From positions 1-22,390 of IMG/VR virus record IMGVR_UViG_3300030019_001278: a stretch of 22,390 bases of DNA; one strand, written 5' to 3'. Below, one piece after another: positions 3,270 to 20,348 of the stretch. The notes beneath the pieces are model-generated. The model worked only from the letters and a program-made list of their open reading frames with translations. It ran no database searches and had not been told where the DNA came from. The stretch is from a virus. Position 1 is the stretch's first letter. Each line of letters opens with the position of its first letter. The position numbers and the translations under genes were made by a program.

Positions 3270-6200
3270 TTATGTCCACTGCCCGGACTTAGAAGTTAAA
3301 TAATAATTTGTTCCGCTATATACTTCAGCATTGAAGTCATTCGGATTTTCTATAATCCAAATAAGCTCCCCGCCATCTGTCAGCGCTAAATCCTTCCGCC
3401 AAAATGCCCACAGGTGCAATACTGATACGCGAAGAAGTCTTATCTCAAGTATTTGATTTCCGGAAGCTAAAGAATTCGCATAGAAAGACTTCTGTCCCTC
3501 AACCTCAGAATTCTTAACCATGACCTTTATATTATAGCCTTGGAAGTCTTCGTTGGCATCATACACACCTGAGTTAACTATCGTGCATTTAACGCCATCA
3601 AAAGCTTGTGTGGTTGGTAGACAAAGCGTACTCCCCTCGCTGTAGCTACTTCCGACTGTCAAGTTGAAATCATCATCACCTGTAAGGTAATAGAACCCGC
3701 TTGTAACAGCTTCGTTAACCGAAAATAGGCGTGTATGAGTAGTGTTACGAAGAAGCCCTGAGAATGTCCCGTTTGTCGCGTTAACAGTTCCGCTTATATT
3801 AGCATCTTTAGCTTCCAACTTACCCGTTTCAGCAGAGAGTCGGGTCATGACCTCACCCTCGTTTACACCGATGATATCACTCTTTCCCGTTTCGATTACC
3901 CCAGTGCCCATACCGAAGCCGGTTAGCTTACCGGTTGTTTCATTCTTGGTACCGAAAAAAGCTTTAGGAGAAACAACCTTAGTACCATCTATCAAGGTGG
4001 CGTTAGTGTCCCATTCTACCAACCATGGAAGCAGGTTTGCATCTTTGCCATCAGCACCGGATGCGCCAGTATCTCCCTTTATCTTGATTGGATTCCCCCA
4101 TGTTCCGGAAGTAGAAGAAGCAGCTACCTTTTGGCTCATCCATACATCTGAAGATGTTGCGGACGTATGCCACCCGTTAAGCGTTCCATTTCCGGTAGGT
4201 ACAGCAGGCTCTGTGGCGATTGCGTTATACGTAATAAAAACAGAAAGGCCATCTGTACCGTTAGTACCATCAGCCCCATCGCTACCATCAGCTACCATTA
4301 ATGCCCAAGCAGTGCCTGTATAGATATAAACAAGTCCATTATCCGTATCTCGATATGCCCAATTCTTGACTGGAGATGCAGGAGCGGAAGATAGGTCACC
4401 TTTCCATACAATGCTTAAACCATCTGCGCCATTAGTACCATTAACACCGGCTGCACCGTCAATAGTCATCTGATACCAAGTTCCATCTCGATATGTATAA
4501 CTCTTTTTGTCGGTTGTATTTCTATATGCCCAACCATCAGAAGGGCTACTTGGATGAACAGAGAAATCACCTTTCCATACAATAGATGTTCCATCTGTGC
4601 CATCTGACCCGTCTACACCCGCAGCCCCGTTGGTACCGTTCGTTCCATTAGTGCCGTCAGCTCCATACTTTGCCCATACGGCAGGTGCGGAAAATGTTCC
4701 CCAAGTGCCATTGTTTTTTTTGCGTACAGATACCCATTCGTAGGGTAATATAGACGTAACTCCAGTAGGATTATCAGTCCATCCAGTCGGCACTTCATCA
4801 TCTGATGTTCCAGTGGCTACAGGAGTAGATGGCGATGTGTTGGTAGCAGTTCCTTTATAGACATATTCAAAGCCATCTCCATCTTGTCCTTTCTCTCCCC
4901 ATTTTGCCCATAGTACTGCCGTTGAATAGATTCCCCAAGTTCCATTCTTCTTATATCTTACACAGACGTATTCATACATGGAAGTCGAAGTAACGCCTGT
5001 TGGGTGATCCGTCCACCCGGTAGGAATATTTCCATCTGTATTAACGGATGTTGGTGTTGTGGGCGCTGTGGCAGAAGTTGAAGATTTGTATATAAATTCA
5101 ACATCGGTTCCGTCAGTACCATTTTGACCATCAGAACCTGTAATACACACGGGAGCCGTCCAGTATGTATTATCAGCTTTTTTGACGATAACACCTGACC
5201 CGTCAAATTCAGCTTGAATCATCCATATATAAATGAATGTGGTTGATGTTGAAGGCGTATAGCTCCATTTATTATTCGCTCCGGGGTCATCGTTAGGGTT
5301 AGTCACCAATCCTTGGCCGAATTCAGGTGATTGCTCATAACTATCACTAGCATAGAACATCCACTTAAATGTATGTCCTGCTATTCCTGTTGCTCCGGTA
5401 GCGCCAACTGCACCAGAGTCTCCTTTTTCTCCTTTTAAATTAGTTTGTGTTTCGGTAGAAAGATTGTTCCATGTGAGTACAACATTACTAGCCAATGTAC
5501 ATTCATACTTGGCCGTTGTTGCGTTATACGCCCACGAAATAGCACCACCCGCAATAAAGCCGCTTTTATCTGCCTTAAAATTTACAGCATCCTGAGCAAA
5601 AGAAGCTGATCCGTCAGGGTTTATTTGATACATGACAGTACCTGTATCGTTAACTCCTTTTATTAGTCCGTTTACACAATAGAATCCTTTCAGCCCATCC
5701 GTTCCGGGTATATCTCCGCCAATTCTTATCTTAACACATCCATCCCAATTTTTAGAATTAATTCCAAACATAACGTCAATAGCAGGTTGGCCATCTTCAT
5801 CTGCATGTAGGTAGATTGCCGATTGTCTTGCCGTATTAACCGAATTACCGAACTGAACAATATCATCACCAACTTCAGGAATAGAATCGGTAAACTGATC
5901 TTGTAATATCTGAATAGCAGTTCCCTCAATATTCGCAATTTGTACGTGATACATTTTTTGCGAGGTACCTGAAAAAGTCTGGCAACGTACAAAATCATTA
6001 ACGATAAAAGATTGATCTTTATCGTCAAGAGTGATTGAATAGTACGGATCACTATCTTCTGGAGTGATCAACTCTACAGTAGCAATCGTTCCAAATGCTT
6101 GAGTAATTCCTAATGCACCTTTAATAGCTCTAATTTTAGATATTAGTAATTCAAAAATAGTCATCTGACCTCGAACCGTAAGGGCATCCACCTCAAGCTT

Positions 6201-6341
6201 CCATTTGCCCGAAGTGTACTCCCATAATTTCCATCCGTAGCCCGCGAATCCGGAGAGGAAACGCTCTACATATTTAGTTCCACTTTTTATGCTCGAAAAT
6301 AAGCTTTTGCCGTGAAATCCTGTATTGTAAAATTCTGCCAT
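3270..6341 (-). CDS. Modular tail fibre/tip protein with collagen-like Gly-X-Y blocks
   Basis: This 1023-aa structural protein has an N-terminal region (1-300) like Bacteroides phage baseplate/tail proteins (GNSVNTARQSAIYLHAD, GFYCVNGLIKG). Seven short collagen-like Gly-X-Y blocks follow, at about residues 304-322, 402-413, 482-490, 560-584, 629-641, 686-698 and 756-767. They separate globular modules. Two of these are near-duplicates at 413-481 and 490-560 (PTGWTD-PTGVTS, KNGTWG, WAK-G). Two more repeat at 585-629 and 642-686 (SIVWKGD, WAYR, DG). A segment near 846-865 reads AKDANISGTVNATNGTFSG. The C-terminal domain (866-1023) is beta-rich. Collagen-like blocks imply trimers. The protein is the last fibre before lysis and is probably exposed for receptor or polysaccharide binding. 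No enzymatic motif is seen. Confidence 0.88.
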   Translation of the reverse strand: MAEFYNTGFHGKSLFSSIKSGTKYVERFLSGFAGYGWKLWEYTSGKWKLEVDALTVRGQMTIFELLISKIRAIKGALGITQAFGTIATVELITPEDSDPYYSITLDDKDQSFIVNDFVRCQTFSGTSQKMYHVQIANIEGTAIQILQDQFTDSIPEVGDDIVQFGNSVNTARQSAIYLHADEDGQPAIDVMFGINSKNWDGCVKIRIGGDIPGTDGLKGFYCVNGLIKGVNDTGTVMYQINPDGSASFAQDAVNFKADKSGFIAGGAISWAYNATTAKYECTLASNVVLTWNNLSTETQTNLKGEKGDSGAVGATGATGIAGHTFKWMFYASDSYEQSPEFGQGLVTNPNDDPGANNKWSYTPSTSTTFIYIWMIQAEFDGSGVIVKKADNTYWTAPVCITGSDGQNGTDGTDVEFIYKSSTSATAPTTPTSVNTDGNIPTGWTDHPTGVTSTSMYEYVCVRYKKNGTWGIYSTAVLWAKWGEKGQDGDGFEYVYKGTATNTSPSTPVATGTSDDEVPTGWTDNPTGVTSILPYEWVSVRKKNNGTWGTFSAPAVWAKYGADGTNGTNGTNGAAGVDGSDGTDGTSIVWKGDFSVHPSSPSDGWAYRNTTDKKSYTYRDGTWYQMTIDGAAGVNGTNGADGLSIVWKGDLSSAPASPVKNWAYRDTDNGLVYIYTGTAWALMVADGSDGADGTNGTDGLSVFITYNAIATEPAVPTGNGTLNGWHTSATSSDVWMSQKVAASSTSGTWGNPIKIKGDTGASGADGKDANLLPWLVEWDTNATLIDGTKVVSPKAFFGTKNETTGKLTGFGMGTGVIETGKSDIIGVNEGEVMTRLSAETGKLEAKDANISGTVNATNGTFSGLLRNTTHTRLFSVNEAVTSGFYYLTGDDDFNLTVGSSYSEGSTLCLPTTQAFDGVKCTIVNSGVYDANEDFQGYNIKVMVKNSEVEGQKSFYANSLASGNQILEIRLLRVSVLHLWAFWRKDLALTDGGELIWIIENPNDFNAEVYSGTNYYLTSKSGQWT
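4284..5105 (-). repeat. Duplicated fibre modules interspersed with Gly-X-Y repeats
   Basis: This part of the fibre gene encodes two tandem copies of an approximately 70-aa module (5105-4899 and 4874-4662). Two copies of an approximately 45-aa SIVWKGD...WAYR module follow (4589-4455 and 4418-4284). The copies are separated by collagen-like blocks of low-complexity DNA (repeated GGT/ACN triplet patterns). They are diverged at the protein level, so the duplication is not recent. Such repeats allow length change by recombination. Confidence 0.75.
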
Positions 6342-6353
6342 AGTTAGATATTA

Positions 6354-8126
6354 TTACGATACGAATTCTAGTTCGCACATGTTATATCCTACATAAAGTG
6401 CACCGGTTGTATTACCTTGACACCTTACCGTAAGTGTTCCATCTGTGATGGTTACCGCCATATCTGCACAGAATTTTGTTGCGGTATCCTGTGTTTGTCC
6501 GTCCTGGAACGTAAGCGGATATGCTGTACCATTTACGTAGATAGTTCCTGTTGTCATATTATTACCTCCTGAATATCTATTAAGGAAGAACCTAATCTTA
6601 TAATTTCCATTTGGTAAACCTGTCATTCCGCCTGCTGCCATGTATGGAGAAGATGCATTAGTATTGCCGTAGCAAACCATTCCTAAACTCGTTTGAGTAC
6701 TAACAGCAGTCCAATAAGCATAAGGTATATTTGCAATAATTGCAGTAGCAAGAGTGCTCTTATTATCAGAGTTATATTGCTTGGTAGGACTTACTGGAGT
6801 TGCTCCCAATGCTGTCGCCAACGCTGCCCTAGACATGCTCGTTGCCCTTGCCGTATTGGTCGTGTCAACCAGACTTCTTGTTAGATCGAATTCGAAGTTC
6901 AAGTTCACATAATCGCCATTCGTTGGAGAAGCAACCTTCTGAGTTGCGTTATTATCATAGCTCGCTTGCAGAAGCATCTTCCAACCGGAAGAAGCTGCAA
7001 CGCAAGTCATATCGGCTGTATCGGTAAGTGCTGAATTAGCATTCGATGTAGCGGTTATAGTCACACTTCCTGCTGCAATGAATGTTACAAGTCCGGAACT
7101 AGATACAGTAGCAATAGCGGAATTAGAGGTGCTCCATAAAACGCTCTTATCTGTTGCATTAGAAGGAAGTACAGTCGTTGCTAATTGCAACGTACCTCCC
7201 GCGTTATAACTAGCTGCAATGGTTGTAGTAATCTCTACGGAAGAAGTAGCGACAACGGGTGTTACCGCAACAACAGAGAATGTATCTGTAAGTGATGTAT
7301 TTCCATTCGCTGTAGCGGTTATCGTTGCATTTCCTGCGCCTACGATAGTGACTAATCCTGTATTAGAGACGGTTGCGATCGCTGTATTGGAAGATAGCCA
7401 AGACACGGTGCTGTCGGTTGCGTTTGACGGTGTGATCGATACTGCCAATTGTACCGTATCTCCTACATTGTAACTAGATGCAGGCGTATTAGTTATATCG
7501 ATTGCAGTAGGTGCAATAACAGAAGTAGCTGCTATTCCCGTAAATGCAACCGAATCCGTGATGGCAGAACTATATGAAGAGGTCAATGTGATCGTTACAG
7601 ACCCTTCGCCGACTACGGTTACTAATCCGGCTGATGACACAGTAGCTATTGCCGTGTTAGAAGAAGACCAAGATACATTCTTATTACCCGCGTTCGAAGG
7701 AGTTACAGAACTTGTTAAATTGAATGTAGAACCAACTGTTTTTTGAGTCGACGCATAAGTAGCCTTATTCGTAATTAATACGGCCGTAACTGCAATCTCA
7801 CTAATAGTCACACTCACCGTATCAACGATCGTATTGCTATAGCTTGAGGTAACGGTAATAGTTGTAGTGCCGTATGCGAGAATCGTCATCACTCCCGCGG
7901 ATGTAATTGTAGCAACGCTCGTATTACTTGAGGAATATGTGTATCCCTTATTTGTCGCATTCGTTGGAGTGAATGCGGTCGTAAATGTGAATGTACCGCC
8001 AATAGCCAATGTGCCGACTGATGTCTTATTGGCAATAGAAATACCCGTAAGTGCTATTGCAGCAGCAGAGATACTTCCTAGATTAGTTGCGAAAATGCAA
8101 TCTGATAGTAATATATATTTTCCCAT
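6354..8126 (-). CDS. Fibre/adhesin with four tandem Big2 (Ig-like) domains
   Basis: This 590-aa protein is Ser/Thr/Ala-rich. After a short N-terminus (1-22) come four tandem bacterial Ig-like group 2 repeats of about 85-90 aa: roughly 23-108, 109-197, 198-287 and 288-377. Each has the signature TPSNATNK-VSWSSSNTAIATVSSAGLVTVV-G-VTIT. The C-terminal part (378-590) is a different beta-sandwich with W382, NGNYKIRFFLNRY and VYVGYN-like strands, perhaps a galactose-binding or malectin-type carbohydrate module. Big2 domains are known on phage tails and bacterial adhesins and bind glycans or act as spacers. Start and upstream stop overlap by one base (TAATG), so translation is coupled with the preceding fibre gene. 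Its role as a fibre or surface decoration is inferred from position. Confidence 0.85.
   Translation of the reverse strand: MGKYILLSDCIFATNLGSISAAAIALTGISIANKTSVGTLAIGGTFTFTTAFTPTNATNKGYTYSSSNTSVATITSAGVMTILAYGTTTITVTSSYSNTIVDTVSVTISEIAVTAVLITNKATYASTQKTVGSTFNLTSSVTPSNAGNKNVSWSSSNTAIATVSSAGLVTVVGEGSVTITLTSSYSSAITDSVAFTGIAATSVIAPTAIDITNTPASSYNVGDTVQLAVSITPSNATDSTVSWLSSNTAIATVSNTGLVTIVGAGNATITATANGNTSLTDTFSVVAVTPVVATSSVEITTTIAASYNAGGTLQLATTVLPSNATDKSVLWSTSNSAIATVSSSGLVTFIAAGSVTITATSNANSALTDTADMTCVAASSGWKMLLQASYDNNATQKVASPTNGDYVNLNFEFDLTRSLVDTTNTARATSMSRAALATALGATPVSPTKQYNSDNKSTLATAIIANIPYAYWTAVSTQTSLGMVCYGNTNASSPYMAAGGMTGLPNGNYKIRFFLNRYSGGNNMTTGTIYVNGTAYPLTFQDGQTQDTATKFCADMAVTITDGTLTVRCQGNTTGALYVGYNMCELEFVS
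6996..8060 (-). repeat. Four tandem Big2 domain-coding repeats
   Basis: Each unit is about 255-270 bases and encodes one Ig-like domain with the conserved core SxSNTAIATVSSxGLVT. The units differ at many codons, so the array is old or diversified. Confidence 0.85.
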
Positions 8127-11080
8127 TATAATGTACTTATTATGTTATTATAATATGTTTGTAAACTCGGTTTAAGTTGGCTTACGAAATAAGTCAAGTC
8201 GGCTAAATAAGTAGTCCGCACATAACTCGTAGAAGTAGCCCGTACACGTTCGATAATAGTATCGATAGTCGTTAATATGCGACTATCACCGTACAGATTA
8301 ATAATTCCCTTAGAAGTAGATGAGGTCACATTAATTAGCTTTTTGTCATAGGAAGAATCAGGAAATGAGACTACACTGTTAGCTGTTAAATTTGCCTTCA
8401 ATGTGGTTTCCATGAATTCAAGGGCATTACCGTTGGCATCAGCAGTTGGCATATATACCTTAACATGAAAAGTATCTCCCAACTTATACACTCTAATTTT
8501 AGAATACTTCTTAATGCGATAGTAGTCGAAGAATTCCAGTTGTGAAGGAACCCACATTACATCAGTTCCTGCTTTTCCATGCGAAGTAGCGAAATCACGC
8601 AGCATAGTAATCTTAGCATCTACCGCATCATGCGTTCCGACTACCATGTATTTTCTATTCTCCTTTCCTGCAACAGCAAGTTCGGTTGTAAAGTCGCTTA
8701 CAAATGTAGAAAAAGCGGTATCAAACCAGTTGCGGCCGATTGAATTTACATAAAATTGAGCTGCATAGGCCGAATTGTATGGAGGCCTGTCTATGTTGTT
8801 ATACTCAGAAGTCGATCCGGTAAACCATTTAATGTATGGTTGTAACGAGTTGTATGCATCACTAGCAAGCCAGTACGACAAGCTATTTTGTGGACTTCCT
8901 TTTGTGTAGCAACTGAACTTCTTAAACAATCGTGCCGCATGGCCATACCCTGCTGTATCTCCATCAGGTATAGCGTGCATGCGACATCCGGGCAATCCGA
9001 AGAATTTGTATAGAGTATCGTCCATCTCGAATCCTGCGGGCATAGAGGTATAACTTCCCTTCGTAACCTGAGGTAGCGTAAATGTAGTACCTAGATAGCT
9101 AATTGCCGCACTGCTATTTTCATTACAGTTGTGGCTAGATAGCGAATTTCCATACATGTACATCTCTTTATAATTCGTGTAATGGCAGTTCATTGACCCA
9201 CCATACAAAGTTGTATCAGAAGATGCCATTAAACAACGCGGAACACTATTATACACCGATTGCGGCATGAATATAGCAGTAAACTTGTACCTCTTATCTA
9301 ATCCGCATCCGTCTGTAAATAAAGGTATGGCATAGCTAACAGTAGATAGTCCTTTCCCCTTTATCGTAGTTAGGTTACCGCTAAGCCATTGGCTCTGTGT
9401 ATAGATATTGCCATTACTAGTCGCTGCGAGTTCCCTCCCATTAAACAGGGCAAAAAATCTATCGTAAGCATCCGAGCTATTATCATCGATGCTGACTGTC
9501 ATTGCAATTTCCTTGTCGAATTTTAAAGGAGCGATCGACAGTCCTAGTGCATCTACGTCCGCTATGGAACTATCCGTTATAGAGAATTCTAATCCTACGT
9601 AGTCCGCACCATCATCGGTTTTAACGTATCGCAATGTAATTTCAATAGTTACGGCCGTGGATATCGTTTCTGCGGGAGTGAGCACAAATTGCAGACCTCC
9701 TGCCGTGTTAGTTACTTTTGTTTTAGTGAATGGATTATTATAAACAATCTCATCCGAGTTGCTTTTCACAGTGATGTTATGTAGAATTACATACTTTTGA
9801 TAGTCAATGTAATCAAGGAAGCTAAATACCTGTGTGATATCAGTTCCTGCCGTAATTGATGCCGCAGATATAGAAACTTTCTGCTCATAAACTGGGAGAT
9901 ATGTCACCACGCCAGAAAGCAAATACTTATACTTCCCGATTACATTTTCTCCGGTTGAATCAACTATCATTCCTGCCGAATCTAATCCTAAAAGTGATTT
10001 AAAATGATCTGAAACTAATGCAGCATCAAATCCCTCATCTTCGGAATATTGCATGCCTATATTTCCAGTATTATCTGCTACACAGAATACTTTTTTAGAA
10101 GTGTTTACAAGTTCATCGGCGGGGAATTCAGCTTCTATTTGCAATTTTAGAGCAGTTAATTGCTCTGTTAATGTATCACGAACGGGTGTCTGTGTAACCC
10201 ATATTGTGCCATTCCAATATATAACCTGCCCCTGCGTTGCGGAAACACCAAATACGGTTCCTGTCTTCACAACAAGGTAGCAATCATTTGCAGTCGGGCT
10301 AGTTGGTGCGTATTCACTAGTACTAGCTAAACCTTTAGCTAGTTTAGACTCATCGAATACTGGTAGCCACGCCTTAAACATAGTGTATGTAAGGCTATCG
10401 GTATATTGTTTGTTTGATCCGTGTAGTTTATCTGCAGGGTCAGGAATATAAGGGCTCTGATCGTACGTAATTACCCCTCGTACGGTTTTATCTCCTTCCA
10501 ACGGAAGAAAATTATTGTCAACATATTTTTTATTTGTATAGGAATTTTCATCATCTGGTTCATTCTCACAATAAGCTCCGACAGAAAATGTTTTAGCTCC
10601 ATCAATCGTTTCAATACCGGTTTTGTGAACTGCGTTAGAATCGTTAGAAGATACTGTTTGTGATAGAGCTGTTATTTTAGTATTATAATCATTCTCCAAT
10701 GTGGTACGAAGGGTATTCATAAGTCCCACAAGAGTATCCTGATCAGTAATTGAAGTTAGAAAAGTCTCAATCTCACGGAATGTATCAATTGCATTACTTA
10801 AGCTTGTTCCAACAAGTGCATCCAAACGATTCTGAACTACCGCTATTGCAGCATCAATCTGATCAGAAGTATACTCGGTACAATTACTTAATTTCTCATA
10901 TAATTCTGCTGTTAAGTCATGTGTAGAAAGCCCTTTCCCTACAATGGCATTTACCTTATTAGCCACCGTAGTAGTTAAAGAAGTAAGAGATGAATCTGTC
11001 CCATTTATAAATTCTATAATCTGCATTAGCTCAGCAGCAGAGAAAGAATCACCGGTTTGTTTTGATATGGTTATTGCCAT
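8126..11080 (-). CDS. Tail spike/fibre with polysaccharide-deacetylase-like domain
   Basis: This is a 984-aa protein. Residues 1-150 are a helical, probably coiled-coil tail-attachment region with the typical fibre phrase KGLSTHDLTAELYEKL. Residues 150-310 carry fibre linker repeats (KTGIETIDGAKTF, NKKYVDNNFLPLEGDK). Residues 400-510 are beta-rich. From about 520 to 875 there are features of the NodB/CE4 deacetylase fold. MTVSIDDNSSDAY has the paired Asp (D532, D533). YGNSLSSH has the metal-ligand-like H650. GTHDAVD contains H817, and DVMWVPSQLEFFDYY lies at 840-854. The usual second His of motif 2 is not obvious. If active, the domain would remove acetyl groups from capsule or surface glycans during adsorption. 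It is the first of three large fibres downstream of the baseplate genes. The structural role is well supported; the enzyme call is moderate. Confidence 0.85.
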   Translation of the reverse strand: MAITISKQTGDSFSAAELMQIIEFINGTDSSLTSLTTTVANKVNAIVGKGLSTHDLTAELYEKLSNCTEYTSDQIDAAIAVVQNRLDALVGTSLSNAIDTFREIETFLTSITDQDTLVGLMNTLRTTLENDYNTKITALSQTVSSNDSNAVHKTGIETIDGAKTFSVGAYCENEPDDENSYTNKKYVDNNFLPLEGDKTVRGVITYDQSPYIPDPADKLHGSNKQYTDSLTYTMFKAWLPVFDESKLAKGLASTSEYAPTSPTANDCYLVVKTGTVFGVSATQGQVIYWNGTIWVTQTPVRDTLTEQLTALKLQIEAEFPADELVNTSKKVFCVADNTGNIGMQYSEDEGFDAALVSDHFKSLLGLDSAGMIVDSTGENVIGKYKYLLSGVVTYLPVYEQKVSISAASITAGTDITQVFSFLDYIDYQKYVILHNITVKSNSDEIVYNNPFTKTKVTNTAGGLQFVLTPAETISTAVTIEITLRYVKTDDGADYVGLEFSITDSSIADVDALGLSIAPLKFDKEIAMTVSIDDNSSDAYDRFFALFNGRELAATSNGNIYTQSQWLSGNLTTIKGKGLSTVSYAIPLFTDGCGLDKRYKFTAIFMPQSVYNSVPRCLMASSDTTLYGGSMNCHYTNYKEMYMYGNSLSSHNCNENSSAAISYLGTTFTLPQVTKGSYTSMPAGFEMDDTLYKFFGLPGCRMHAIPDGDTAGYGHAARLFKKFSCYTKGSPQNSLSYWLASDAYNSLQPYIKWFTGSTSEYNNIDRPPYNSAYAAQFYVNSIGRNWFDTAFSTFVSDFTTELAVAGKENRKYMVVGTHDAVDAKITMLRDFATSHGKAGTDVMWVPSQLEFFDYYRIKKYSKIRVYKLGDTFHVKVYMPTADANGNALEFMETTLKANLTANSVVSFPDSSYDKKLINVTSSTSKGIINLYGDSRILTTIDTIIERVRATSTSYVRTTYLADLTYFVSQLKPSLQTYYNNIISTL

Positions 11081-17200: not shown

Positions 17201-18876
17201 GCCTCAGTCTTATACTTTGCAAAAATAGATGGATATGCATCTCTTAATTTAATAAGGGCTATTTTTCGATCTTGTGTACTTAGAACTTCGTTTGATGCAG
17301 TGGATATAAGTGCCTCTATTTTGTTTTTATGTTCTTCCTCTGCCTGATTCAACTTATCCATCTCTTCATTGAAGCTCTTTTGTGCTTTTTCTGCTGCGGT
17401 GGTAGAATCATACATAGCCCATGCGGCAGTAGCAAGTACGCCAAGGGCTACGGCAGCTGCTACATAAGGATTGCTAAGCATAGTAGTGTTTAGAAGAGCT
17501 TGAGCCTTTCTAAGGAGAATTATTCTATCTCTCAAGAACATTGTAGCAATGGAGTGTCCCGCTTCTGCATTAGAAGCTAATACAACGGCAACTCTGTACG
17601 CTCCGTATGTACCTATCAATCCAATGAGAACCTTACCGACTTCTTCGTAGTTGTCTACTATGGATTTAGCACCTTGAATAGACATCATGATAATACCCTC
17701 TGAATTCTTACCTAAGCTGTTGAAAGCATTATCGGTCGAATCTTGTAACATTGAGAGCTGTCCTGATATGGTCTTACTGCCATTCTCAGCCATTTTGTAG
17801 AATCTGCCACCCTCACTAGTGGCATCGATGAATGCTTGCTGAACCATCTCTGTGGAGATAGCACCTTTCTCCATCTCCTTTTTAAGGTCCGCAATAGACT
17901 TACCTGTTTTTTGGGCAATAATCTGCAATGGATTGAACCCGGCATTTATCATTTGGTTTAAGTCCTGTCCCATCAACTTACCCGCTGCCGATGATTGAGA
18001 GAATGCAAGGGTGAGAGAATTGAATTTTTGCGAATCTCCCATAGAGACATCGCCAAGTGCTTGAAGGAACTTAGGTACTTTCTCTACTTCAAGATTAAAG
18101 CCAAGCATCATTTGTGTGGCTGCCGTAAGATCACTAACAGTCAATGGAGATATAGCCGCATAAGCTTTTACCTGTGTGAGCAACTTATCGGATTTCTCTT
18201 TGCTGCCAAGCATGGTCTCTATGGCCATGTCCATTCGTTGGAACTCTGCACGGGTGTCAATGAGTTTATTCTTGAATTCATTCAACAAAGCCAATCCGCC
18301 AATAGAGGCCATCATCTGTTTAAATGAAATTGCCATTCCACCGTTGGCAACAACTACTCCTTTTGATTCATTTTTGAACAACGCATATTCATCCTTAAGA
18401 CCCTTTACAGATAGTCTAGCCGATGCCTGTTGCTGTTGTAGATCAAAGAGTGCAGTCTTTTCTTCTATGAGGACTTTCTTTGCTGAATTAAGCTCTAGCA
18501 AAGAATTCCCTTTCCCCGCATTATACGTGGACATAGAACGGTATGCGTTACTTAAATTCCTTACGTCCGATTCTACTTGCTTGATGACTGATTTCTGATC
18601 AATCATCTTTTGAGTAAGTTCATTAACCGAAATAGAGCTTTGATATATCTTCTGCTTTAGATTGGTTTCAACTGCTACACCCGCACTTGCAGCCTCTGTA
18701 ATGAAAGACCGCATAGACGTTTGGGCAGTTGATAGGCTTGCCGACAATGATTTAGCCAAATCGGGCTGCTTGTTAGCATCAATGCTTGCCATTTCTGCTT
18801 TTAACTTGGAGATTTCATCTCTCAGGCGCTGTACTTTATCGAAGTCAGCCTCTACCTTGAAATATAGTTTTGCCAT
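14203..18876 (-). CDS. Tail tape measure protein
   Basis: This 1557-aa protein sets tail length and is ejected with DNA. Residues 1-200 are helical and coiled coil. Residues about 205-395 carry the conserved tape-measure domain: FQRMDMAIETMLGS, YAAISPLTVSDLTAATQMMLGF, GQDLNQMINAGFNPLQIIA, LSMLQDSTDNAFNSLGK. Hydrophobic segments follow at about 412-440 and 465-488 (YVAAAVALGVLATAAWAMY), which may insert into the host membrane. The middle (about 490-1150) is long, charged coiled coil rich in Lys, Glu and Ala, and the end is a Ser-rich helical region. The ATG at 18876 abuts the TAA of the frameshifted chaperone extension with no spacer, a coupling expected of gpG-gpGT-tape measure order. From length alone (about 0.15 nm per residue) the tail would be near 230 nm. 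Confidence 0.95.
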   Translation of the reverse strand: MAKLYFKVEADFDKVQRLRDEISKLKAEMASIDANKQPDLAKSLSASLSTAQTSMRSFITEAASAGVAVETNLKQKIYQSSISVNELTQKMIDQKSVIKQVESDVRNLSNAYRSMSTYNAGKGNSLLELNSAKKVLIEEKTALFDLQQQQASARLSVKGLKDEYALFKNESKGVVVANGGMAISFKQMMASIGGLALLNEFKNKLIDTRAEFQRMDMAIETMLGSKEKSDKLLTQVKAYAAISPLTVSDLTAATQMMLGFNLEVEKVPKFLQALGDVSMGDSQKFNSLTLAFSQSSAAGKLMGQDLNQMINAGFNPLQIIAQKTGKSIADLKKEMEKGAISTEMVQQAFIDATSEGGRFYKMAENGSKTISGQLSMLQDSTDNAFNSLGKNSEGIIMMSIQGAKSIVDNYEEVGKVLIGLIGTYGAYRVAVVLASNAEAGHSIATMFLRDRIILLRKAQALLNTTMLSNPYVAAAVALGVLATAAWAMYDSTTAAEKAQKSFNEEMDKLNQAEEEHKNKIEALISTASNEVLSTQDRKIALIKLRDAYPSIFAKYKTEADMLRDILKIKNQINESDRKKTQNNATDKVTYIDNKISQLQKEKASGSSNPMVSPAAYSKGIDDQIAVLKEKRKLYTKKIANSNTEEYLTNLTGISNSRLKSEIETRKRLLANMGSGGKKYGKVSIGGAQGTYTKDELESQLNTLTLEKNARDTPKKTANQWVEDNRKAMEAAKSKLDNFVKSKNTYSKEEYDKLYKQYDEDYKTAKEKYEKGGGVSSKDAKSAASKAARAAKEANEQKAEIADRQIKINEYTEAISKSVAQSENEIEQSHIDAMENGAQKEEAQIALNYQKLITANTSRRDEMVKQLQAKEKLEWENKNPKAKEKGLAFTPTSTENNLTEDQKKVLQGYTDSANTYKEKAEKDLLKNMLAEFMNYEAQKEAISKKYDDKIADLNSKKGSDPVVNAKIDASIGEANKSKNNELSAVSTEQFKKSINFEDVFGDLDKISTKSIGELKTKIQEYLKLVQGKISETDFKQLSDAFKNLEKEDISRAPAITAVGKAYDDYKASCEKVATAQKALNKLQESGTGDTEEQRKATKALTDAQKDQAVSKAALNKTVNNLGSNMKATAEAGQDILSGLNDLGIETSDQVSGIIAGYGKVADGLAEIDFTKPMSIITGSAKVLSGFASVIGSALGGSEKVVSQKLIDSYEALTTVISNLLDKQTELLEKQSGSEAVESAQKSIELIKQEIQSARNMANETAKAGSSWKSHSYAYHINKNTDWNELSEKMGFRLNNINDVINLSADNLLKLQQNSYVWWSSLDSSLQTYLQKIIDTKDQLSDLDDTLNEALTGISFDSTYDSFESLLQDMSSDSSDFAKNFEEDMRNAIIRMMMTNTYEDKLKAWYKKFAEYTASNDKLTADEITSLNEEYTAIVQAAVQERDDLLSAAGIDSSSTQSSTSGGFASASQESTDELNGRFAALQMSGEEIKDQNVKQTDLLNSVLTVSTAHCNIADETRTIAVNSFLELREISLNTANTVKQLVASNEFLKDIKTNTSKL

Positions 18877-19131
18877 TTACTTTACCTGTTTTCGTTTAAG
18901 CATTTCACGCCCCGACATTTCTACGACATCGTCAGAATCATCACTCACAATCCTCATTTTGTCACACTGCATCAGTATCAGTCTCCTGTAAGGAATAACT
19001 TCTAGCACCTCTGTATAAGTCAAATGAAGGTCTTCTATGAAGGAAGCTATTTGACCCTCAAGTGTATTATTTCCGCTTACTTTTGTTTTGCCGCCATCTC
19101 GGCTAGATCCTTTGCTAAGATGGCACAGTCG
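18877..19131 (-). CDS. Predicted -1 frameshift extension of the tail assembly chaperone (gpT-like)
   Basis: This 84-codon frame is open in the -1 frame relative to the chaperone gene. It runs from the slippery site to a TAA that touches the tape measure ATG. It has no ATG except a late one leaving only 31 residues (codon at 18970-18972), which is why ORF callers miss it. The product begins RLCHLSKGSS and includes EDLHLTYTEVLEVIPYRR and LILMQCDKMRIVSDD, then a charged C-terminus. It looks like real protein and resembles the second chaperone exon of Bacteroides siphophages. After slippage, residues 1-120 of the chaperone would be fused to these 84, giving 204 aa. In lambda-like phages the gpGT form bridges the tape measure and tube subunits. 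Independent initiation at a non-ATG codon is the alternative. Confidence 0.7.
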   Translation of the reverse strand, partial: RLCHLSKGSSRDGGKTKVSGNNTLEGQIASFIEDLHLTYTEVLEVIPYRRLILMQCDKMRIVSDDSDDVVEMSGREMLKRKQVK

Positions 19132-19490
19132 AAAAAATCACCGCCCTTTATAAAATCAGTTACAGAAATCATAGACTTTTTTAACTCGAAGCCGGTGCAA
19201 CTGGAAATATTTTTTGCTATTGATATTGATTTAGCTTCCCAGTCTTCCACGTCACCGGCTATTAATTTGGAAAGCCCGTCAATTATATAGCTTGAATTTT
19301 CTTCAAGTCCACTGAGTGACTGCAATAGCGTTGCTTGATCTTCTGCATCTACACCAGAAAAGCTTTTAATTGCCCTGCATAATACTTTTATGGTAGGAGG
19401 CCATATCGTGTATGGCTTACCTGCTAATATTACTGTTAGAAAGTCTTCATCTATTATCGATGAAGAAATAAGTCGTGCTGCTTGATTCAT
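19077..19490 (-). CDS. Tail assembly chaperone (gpG-like)
   Basis: This 137-aa mainly helical protein lies between the tail tube and tape measure genes, where siphophages encode their tail assembly chaperone. It opens MNQAARLISSSIIDEDFLTVILAGKPYTIWPPT, a strand pair plus proline-rich turn seen in several chaperone families, then amphipathic helices (IKVLCRAIKSF, ATLLQSLSG, SIAKNISSC). No lambda gpG sequence identity is claimed; position and the overlapping frameshift frame carry the call. An in-phase TTTTTTC slippery heptamer lies at codons 119-120, 17 codons before the stop. Most ribosomes would make the 137-aa form and a minority the 204-aa fusion. The gene follows a terminator-like hairpin that may reduce its level relative to the tube protein. 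Confidence 0.8.
   Translation of the reverse strand: MNQAARLISSSIIDEDFLTVILAGKPYTIWPPTIKVLCRAIKSFSGVDAEDQATLLQSLSGLEENSSYIIDGLSKLIAGDVEDWEAKSISIAKNISSCTGFELKKSMISVTDFIKGGDFFDCAILAKDLAEMAAKQK
19093..19137 (-). promoter_or_regulatory. Predicted programmed -1 ribosomal frameshift signal
   Basis: On the minus strand TTTTTTC (19137-19131) is read in frame as T TTT TTC, a canonical X XXY YYZ heptamer. A 6-base spacer follows, then a perfect 7-bp stem with arms GCCATCT (19124-19118) and AGATGGC (19099-19093) around an 18-base loop. A TGA closes the -1 frame immediately before the heptamer, and the frame is open afterwards for 84 codons. Phase, spacer length and downstream stem all fit known -1 frameshift sites. 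Confidence 0.7.
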
Positions 19491-19562: not shown

Positions 19563-20348
19563 TTACGCCCCTGCCTGTGTAACAGGAACAATAGCAGTCT
19601 TACCATCTGCAATAACAGTTACGTTTGCCATTCTAGATTCAGAATTAGCATTTGCAGATACCTTGACAGTAACAACCTTTCCGCTCTTAGTGACAGTAAG
19701 CCACTCAGAGTTGCTTGGAGCTGATGCATAAGAAACACTAGCTGTTGAATTTGCTGTGATAGTTTTACCTGTAGCGTCAGCTGCGGCAGTGAATGCAAGA
19801 GATGTAGGTGATACATCTAATACCAATGCAGACAAGTTTAATCCTTGTACATCGATCCAAAGCTCGTCCTTGAAATCTCCCTCTAGAGGCATAGCGTTAA
19901 GACCAATGCCGACAGCTTTATCAGCATCTTTGCCATTGCCAACTATAACAGCTTTCGGGAATACGATGCAAATATTGTCTTTCGTAATTGCAAAGACTGA
20001 TTTATACCGTACTTCGGTAGGATCACCTGCCTCCCAAGCTGAGCCGTCTGAAGCAGCAGTACCACCTTGTAGGGCGGCCTTTGTTTCAAAGTCATACTCT
20101 CCGATGGTGAATTTGATGGTTTTATCACCACCCTCAACCTCTACTCTGTATGCCACTCCAGTTAATTGATTCTTATACTTTGTCAGACTAGGGTCTGCCT
20201 CTTCGTAAGAATAAGAATCTTGGTGCATGTTTTTTACCTCTGTTCCGGCTTGAATAAGAGAAACAATATTCGCTTTCGTTGGATATACAGTGATAAGATC
20301 GCTGTAGAAAAATTTGTCAATCTTGACAGCGCTAAATTTTCGTCCCAT
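19563..20348 (-). CDS. Major tail tube protein with C-terminal BACON domain
   Basis: This 261-aa protein is placed directly after the tail terminator and before the chaperone and tape measure genes, as expected for the major tail protein. Residues 1-175 are the tube domain (GRKFSAVKIDKFFYSD, YRVEVEGGDKTIKFTIGEYDFETK, and ELWIDVQGLNLSAL at its end). Residues about 177-261 fit a BACON domain. This part starts with the phrase VSPTSLAFTAAADATGKTI, continues NSEWLTVTKSGKVVTVKVSAN and SESRMANVTVIADG, and closes with the family's VPVTQAG ending; W216 is the conserved Trp. BACON modules are typical of Bacteroidota glycan-related proteins. Here they would project from the outside of the tail, as Ig-like domains do on other phage tubes. 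Glycan binding is inference. Confidence 0.88.
   Translation of the reverse strand: MGRKFSAVKIDKFFYSDLITVYPTKANIVSLIQAGTEVKNMHQDSYSYEEADPSLTKYKNQLTGVAYRVEVEGGDKTIKFTIGEYDFETKAALQGGTAASDGSAWEAGDPTEVRYKSVFAITKDNICIVFPKAVIVGNGKDADKAVGIGLNAMPLEGDFKDELWIDVQGLNLSALVLDVSPTSLAFTAAADATGKTITANSTASVSYASAPSNSEWLTVTKSGKVVTVKVSANANSESRMANVTVIADGKTAIVPVTQAGA

Follow-up and report, generated by a model that had tools for sequence, protein, structure and literature searches.

The closest described system is the G/GT frameshift of phage lambda, which is conserved in double-stranded DNA phages (Levin 1993; Xu 2004; both as cited in PMC5009743). Bacterial frameshifting by -1 is governed mainly by re-pairing of the A-site tRNA, and in Escherichia coli, tested together with the IS3 pseudoknot, U_UUC and U_UUU came second and third of 16 tetramers (PMC4066793). 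Slip sites of the types G_GU and G_GAU_UUU are also already known (PMC5009743). Among the open-access papers searched, none was found to describe tail chaperones made by frameshifting in phages of Bacteroidales.

Here, we analyzed a predicted frameshift site in viral DNA of 22,390 nucleotides (positions 1 to 22,390 of the IMG/VR record IMGVR_UViG_3300030019_001278), the whole of which is referred to as the window. The sequences of its homologues strongly argue that the gene upstream of the tape-measure gene gives rise to a tail assembly chaperone pair of the G/GT type through programmed -1 ribosomal frameshifting, a reading in which we have high confidence.

The anatomy of the site in the window was confirmed (Table 1). 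The in-phase heptamer T_TTT_TTC that had been reported near the end of the putative chaperone gene is present in the zero frame of the minus strand at 19137-19131, in the context GAT TTT TTC GAC, and the TGA said to lie just before it in the -1 frame was located at 19140-19138, where it sets the upstream limit for a shift. Counted from the heptamer, the -1 frame has 86 open codons, and the claimed run of 84 codons, i.e., those after the two slip codons, matched base for base up to its TAA (18879-18877), which is followed directly by the tape-measure ATG at 18876. An open -1 run of such length occurred in 0.1% of base shuffles. The proposed product sizes were correct as well: the window sequence gives 137 aa for the zero-frame product, which ends at the stop codon 19079-19077 (minus strand), and 204 aa for the -1 fusion. 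Also, the described 6-base spacer and perfect 7-bp stem were found, with GCCATCT (19124-19118) facing AGATGGC (19099-19093) 6 nt after the heptamer; G-U pairs at its ends extend the stem to 9 pairs (TGCCATCTT, 19125-19117, with GAGATGGCG, 19100-19092). The window itself thereby shows the canonical layout of a U_UUU_UUC in phase, a spacer of 6 nt (criterion, 5 to 9 nt) and a 7-bp stem. When the region was folded alone, a free energy of -15.6 kcal/mol was obtained (z = -1.75), and since 9 of 200 shuffles folded as well, the folding of this single sequence gives only modest support to the stem. An Rfam search of the window, including the curated frameshift elements, yielded no match at the gathering threshold. 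The decisive support for the site comes from the comparison of homologous sequences.

Table 1. Features of the putative chaperone locus and its neighbors in the window
Feature	Coordinates	Strand	Basis
Gene for the G-like part (137 aa) of the putative tail assembly chaperone, zero frame (phrog_13669)	19077..19490	-	ORF; phrog_13669, E=3.5e-23
Slip heptamer U_UUU_UUC, including the family-wide invariant U_UUY tetramer	19131..19137	-	Sequence; homologue alignment
TGA of the -1 frame, directly 5' of the slip site	19138..19140	-	Sequence
Stem-loop 3' of the slip site, 16-nt loop	19092..19125	-	Sequence; folding; family stem columns
Coding region of the -1 frame from the slip site, T-like C-terminal part (phrog_14740)	18880..19137	-	Sequence; phrog match; homologues
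TAA closing the -1 ORF, abutting the tape-measure ATG	18877..18879	-	Sequence
Tape-measure protein gene, 1557 aa	14203..18876	-	Pfam TMP_3, E=1.2e-27; phrog_9959, E=2e-142
Putative major tail protein gene, C-terminal BACON domain	19563..20348	-	phrog_14600, E=1.5e-44; BACON_2, E=1.2e-10

By tblastn, both parts of the protein were found to have relatives in BS-TP2, an isolated Bacteroides phage, as well as in contigs of faecal phages. When a profile was built from the extension, it retrieved 80 loci on viral contigs and 22 in genomes or MAGs of bacteria, most of them Bacteroides, Prevotella-related, Paraprevotella and Tannerella. This search used the extension alone and allowed any frame. The extension lay in the -1 frame of the upstream gene in 105 of 105 loci (85 distinct), as it did in all 14 more distant viral loci that were fetched later. 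The alignment of the N part contained no segment with enough conservation for a profile search. No in-frame fusion of the two parts was present among these 105 and 14 loci. Sampling of genomes gave 2 matches in 395 genomes of the phylum and 11 matches at threshold in 301 genomes of one family; the full-length loci from these samples showed the -1 frame as well. The weakest of the matches, L121, sits inside a long unrelated ORF and was discarded as a chance hit, and in a shorter extra copy, L122, no slip site was found at the expected place. In BS-TP2, the annotated gene order is tail protein, gp75, tape measure. The frameshift extension of this phage is unannotated (PQ571275.1, 44401-44508), and a small opposite-strand gene, gp76, which is probably spurious, has been called over the overlap region.

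Closer examination of the slip site revealed a zero-frame T_TTY in a single alignment column, near the end of the zero frame, in all 85 distinct loci (U_UUU in 79, U_UUC in 6). The codon before this Phe codon varies (GAT, GCT, AAT, GTT, TCT, CCT, CTT or AGT), with T always as its last base. Among representatives sharing less than 85% identity, the tetramer was invariant (42/42), and the adjacent codons were poorly conserved in either frame. Canonical heptamers were present in 22 of 50 aligned sequences (U_UUU_UUY in 8, A_AAU_UUY in 12 and C_CCU_UUY in 2); the remaining 28 have U_UUY only, with a partial or poor fit in the P site (G_GNU_UUY in 21, other forms in 7). In some members, such as those with G_GCU_UUU_CAG or N_UCU_UUU, the P-site codon cannot re-pair well. 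A canonical X_XXZ_ZZN heptamer is thus not conserved family-wide in this alignment, and on a tree built without the overlap region the slip-site class changes at least 12 times. The original prediction had proposed to look for conservation of heptamer, spacer and stem. U_UUY is the only invariant, whereas the exact heptamer T_TTT_TTC is confined to the clade of the window (8 of the 50 aligned sequences) and is to be seen as the form of one clade. Judged from these alignments, what the family has in common is U_UUY together with a stem that starts 5 to 6 nt after the A-site codon. We tentatively consider, at somewhat less than even chances, that the family has fixed the A-site half (U_UUY) only and left the P-site codon free, and that the stem shifted by about 3 nt in the clade that acquired UUC as its A-site codon. 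If true, nature would here provide evidence that Bacteroidales ribosomes can do without re-pairing in the P site and that they gauge the spacing from the A-site codon.

The stem is likewise a family feature. In the alignment of 50 sequences, 87.5% of cells were paired at the family stem (columns 11-20/41-49), and the stem of the window occupies the same columns. The covariation score of the stem was 0.311, compared to 0.232 ± 0.013 for shuffled data and a maximum of 0.188 for slid positions of the stem. At pair 14-46, the 49 distinct rows comprise 36 G-C, 11 A-U and 2 G-U pairs, and RNAalifold independently predicted the stem core with the same compensatory pairs. Compensatory changes on well-supported tree branches were few. 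The tree-based test alone is small, since only 2 independent row pairs differ at 14-46; their changes were nearly always in the compensatory direction. In the nearest relatives of the window, the register of the stem has moved by about 3 bases (TGCCGCC/GGCGGCA), which matches the move of the slip heptamer by one codon. In most sequences of both layouts, 5 to 6 nt separate the presumed A-site codon from the stem, i.e., for N_NNU_UUY sites and, when counted after UUC, for most of the U_UUU_UUC clade. Against codon-shuffled controls, the best stem ranked in the top 5% for 51 of 60 sequences; a few members, L038, L096 and L030, have a weak or displaced one. In BS-TP2, the loop looked convincingly able to form a pseudoknot with RNA further downstream (AGGAACGT with ACGTTCTT); this candidate was dropped, with only 2 of 40 sequences at p<0.05 against codon shuffles.

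Furthermore, the overlap bears the marks of dual coding. For synonymous differences, the observed/expected ratio was about 1.0 upstream and 0.36 in a 7-codon segment at the slip codon, where the constraint begins, and dropped to its lowest value, 0.13, downstream of the slip site. The synonymous-site constraint anticipated for this place is therefore strong. In the 85 loci, the first 18 codons from the site contain a single -1-frame stop in 1,530 codons, compared to 7 to 10% upstream, and 177 stops in 1,530 codons in the +1 frame. Since none of the 85 loci has an open +1 frame, a +1 shift of the UUU_Y type (PMC5009743) was dismissed. The sole -1-frame stop is a TAG just after the site in a prophage of a Tannerella MAG (L014, ~2525); the rest of the site and the stem are intact there, and the locus is either a decayed prophage or carries a sequence error.

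These data bear directly on the possibility that the C-terminal part is a separate gene, whose translation starts by reinitiation or coupling once ribosomes have reached the stop of the zero frame. PHROGs does keep this part as a family of its own, the 58-aa phrog_14740. However, in the stretch that leads from the slip site to the conserved domain, the loci share no ATG, GTG or TTG, and the commonest first ATG in the extension is at +98, inside the domain. The -1 frame, moreover, is conserved and stop-free from the slip codon on, ahead of the zero-frame stop. Stops, constraint and start codons therefore argue strongly against a separately started gene and for a shift at or just after U_UUY. 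Such a gene would also leave the T_TTY tetramer and the stem unexplained, and we regard it as very improbable. Homologues with the extension in frame or with its own start codon, named beforehand as the finding that would speak against a frameshift, were looked for; in no homologue is the extension in frame or preceded by a conserved start codon of its own.

The fusion might also be made by transcriptional slippage on the T run instead of by ribosomes. T runs can cause RNA polymerase slippage, and the window has six T in a row. Polymerase slippage has been noted for U7 (PMC4066793). In many homologues, however, the run consists of four T, or of three T followed by C (CCC TTT C, AAA TTT C), and is therefore too short for efficient polymerase slippage. 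The conserved stem 5 to 6 nt past the A-site codon is, furthermore, the layout of a ribosomal frameshift, and an origin of the fusion in transcription appears even less probable than a separate gene. Least probable is an error in sequencing or assembly, or decay of a gene whose true form is one unbroken frame. Errors are common in homopolymer runs, and the window comes from a virus contig, but two further IMG/VR contigs carry the region with an identical protein sequence, and isolate genomes as well as the isolated phage BS-TP2 keep the frame relation without a long run at the site. By these homologous sequences, an error is already refuted. The comparative evidence thus supports the original reading that the phage would make two forms by a -1 frameshift.

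As to the identity of the protein, its gene sits between the putative major tail protein gene (BACON) and the tape-measure gene (TMP_3), which is the place of lambda G/GT. In PHROGs, the two parts match phrog_13669 and phrog_14740, both of "unknown function." Neither part of the window protein had a significant match in Pfam; one relative of the C part matched Phage_TAC_19 (E=0.006). Structures were predicted with AlphaFold2 from alignments without loci from annotated phage records. In the N part, predicted with fair confidence (pLDDT, 80.6), a helical bundle comes after one helix and two strands; the C part consists of a disordered, dual-coded linker and a confident helical core, predicted as a helical hairpin with a pLDDT of about 83 to 90 over the conserved core. 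Foldseek searches of the N part against the PDB gave spurious helical matches only, and those of the C part nothing usable. In a second-look alignment, the best PDB match of the N part among 673 chains was the HK97 tail assembly chaperone 2ob9 (rmsd of 6.4 over 90 residues), with a Z of 4.0, which is too low to prove a common fold. Weak BFVD matches of the N part include named tail chaperones, N15 GT among them. Position, architecture and these weak structural hints indicate that the protein is very likely a tail assembly chaperone.

Weak matches of phrog_12247 to 16 of 38 N parts and of phrog_11996 to 29 of 38 C parts were observed, and these families may represent a remoter branch that is organized alike. 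In BFVD, the N part had its best structural match in A0A8S5SM04 and the C part a weak one in A0A8S5SM93; both come from Myoviridae sp. ctPoO4, which may hold an unannotated frameshift pair.

According to the mechanism that we propose, most ribosomes would end at 19079-19077 and release the 137-aa G-like chaperone. A minority would run into the stem-loop (19125-19092) while tRNA-Phe is paired to UUC in their A site, move back by one base on U_UUU_UUC and read on to 18879, yielding the 204-aa GT-like protein; that slippage occurs, and at low efficiency, is what we infer from the site. Throughout the family, the essential step would be the re-pairing of the A-site tRNA-Phe from UUY to UUU, and the P-site codon may re-pair too (A_AAU, U_UUU, C_CCU) or fit partly (G_GNU, UCU). 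By analogy to lambda (PMC5009743), the short form would coat the tape measure through binding by its G part, and the extension, as the T part, would recruit the tail-tube protein.

A likely function is thereby suggested for two families of "unknown function," as phrog_13669 and phrog_14740 would be parts of one frameshifted protein. This also corrects the annotation of Bacteroides phages, e.g., BS-TP2, where the extension is missing, and provides a natural series of -1 frameshift sites with a fixed A-site half for the study of slippage rules in Bacteroidales.

Some neighboring genes of the window showed further features. Shorter homologues (about 180 to 190 aa) of the BACON-containing protein, located beside the chaperone genes of relatives, seem to be without this domain. 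A 984-aa tail-region protein (8126-11080, minus strand) has a putative polysaccharide deacetylase domain at residues 792 to 973 (Pfam, E=1.5e-11) and is possibly a capsule-modifying tail part. The tail-region proteins encoded at 6354-8126 and 3270-6341 (both minus strand) contain bacterial Ig-like Big_2 repeats and collagen-like Gly-x-x stretches.

Among known systems, the HK97 chaperone 2ob9 is the top second-look match to the predicted N part, yet with 12% identity and the low Z given above. T7 gene 10 (G_GU type) and the G_GAU_UUU site of pea enation mosaic virus (PMC5009743) resemble the G_GNU_UUY class described here in the P-site half-fit of G_GN before U_UUY, whereas their genes and hosts are unrelated. 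The U_UUU and U_UUC sites of the IS1 and IS3 families share the minimal motif, the re-pairing of the A-site tRNA-Phe and a 3' structure (PMC4066793); those are, however, transposase genes, and IS3 has a pseudoknot, which our simple test did not find here. Compared to lambda G/GT, there is no detectable sequence relation, the slip site is based on U_UUY instead of GGGAAAG, the phages are those of Bacteroidales, and a covarying stem-loop lies 5 to 6 nt downstream. Like lambda G/GT, the gene is located just upstream of the tape-measure gene, has its slip site close to where the first frame ends, is prolonged in the -1 frame by a long extension that lacks a start codon, and has a helical first product. 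It is a system of this known kind, the lambda G/GT type, in a previously unannotated family (phrog_13669 plus phrog_14740).
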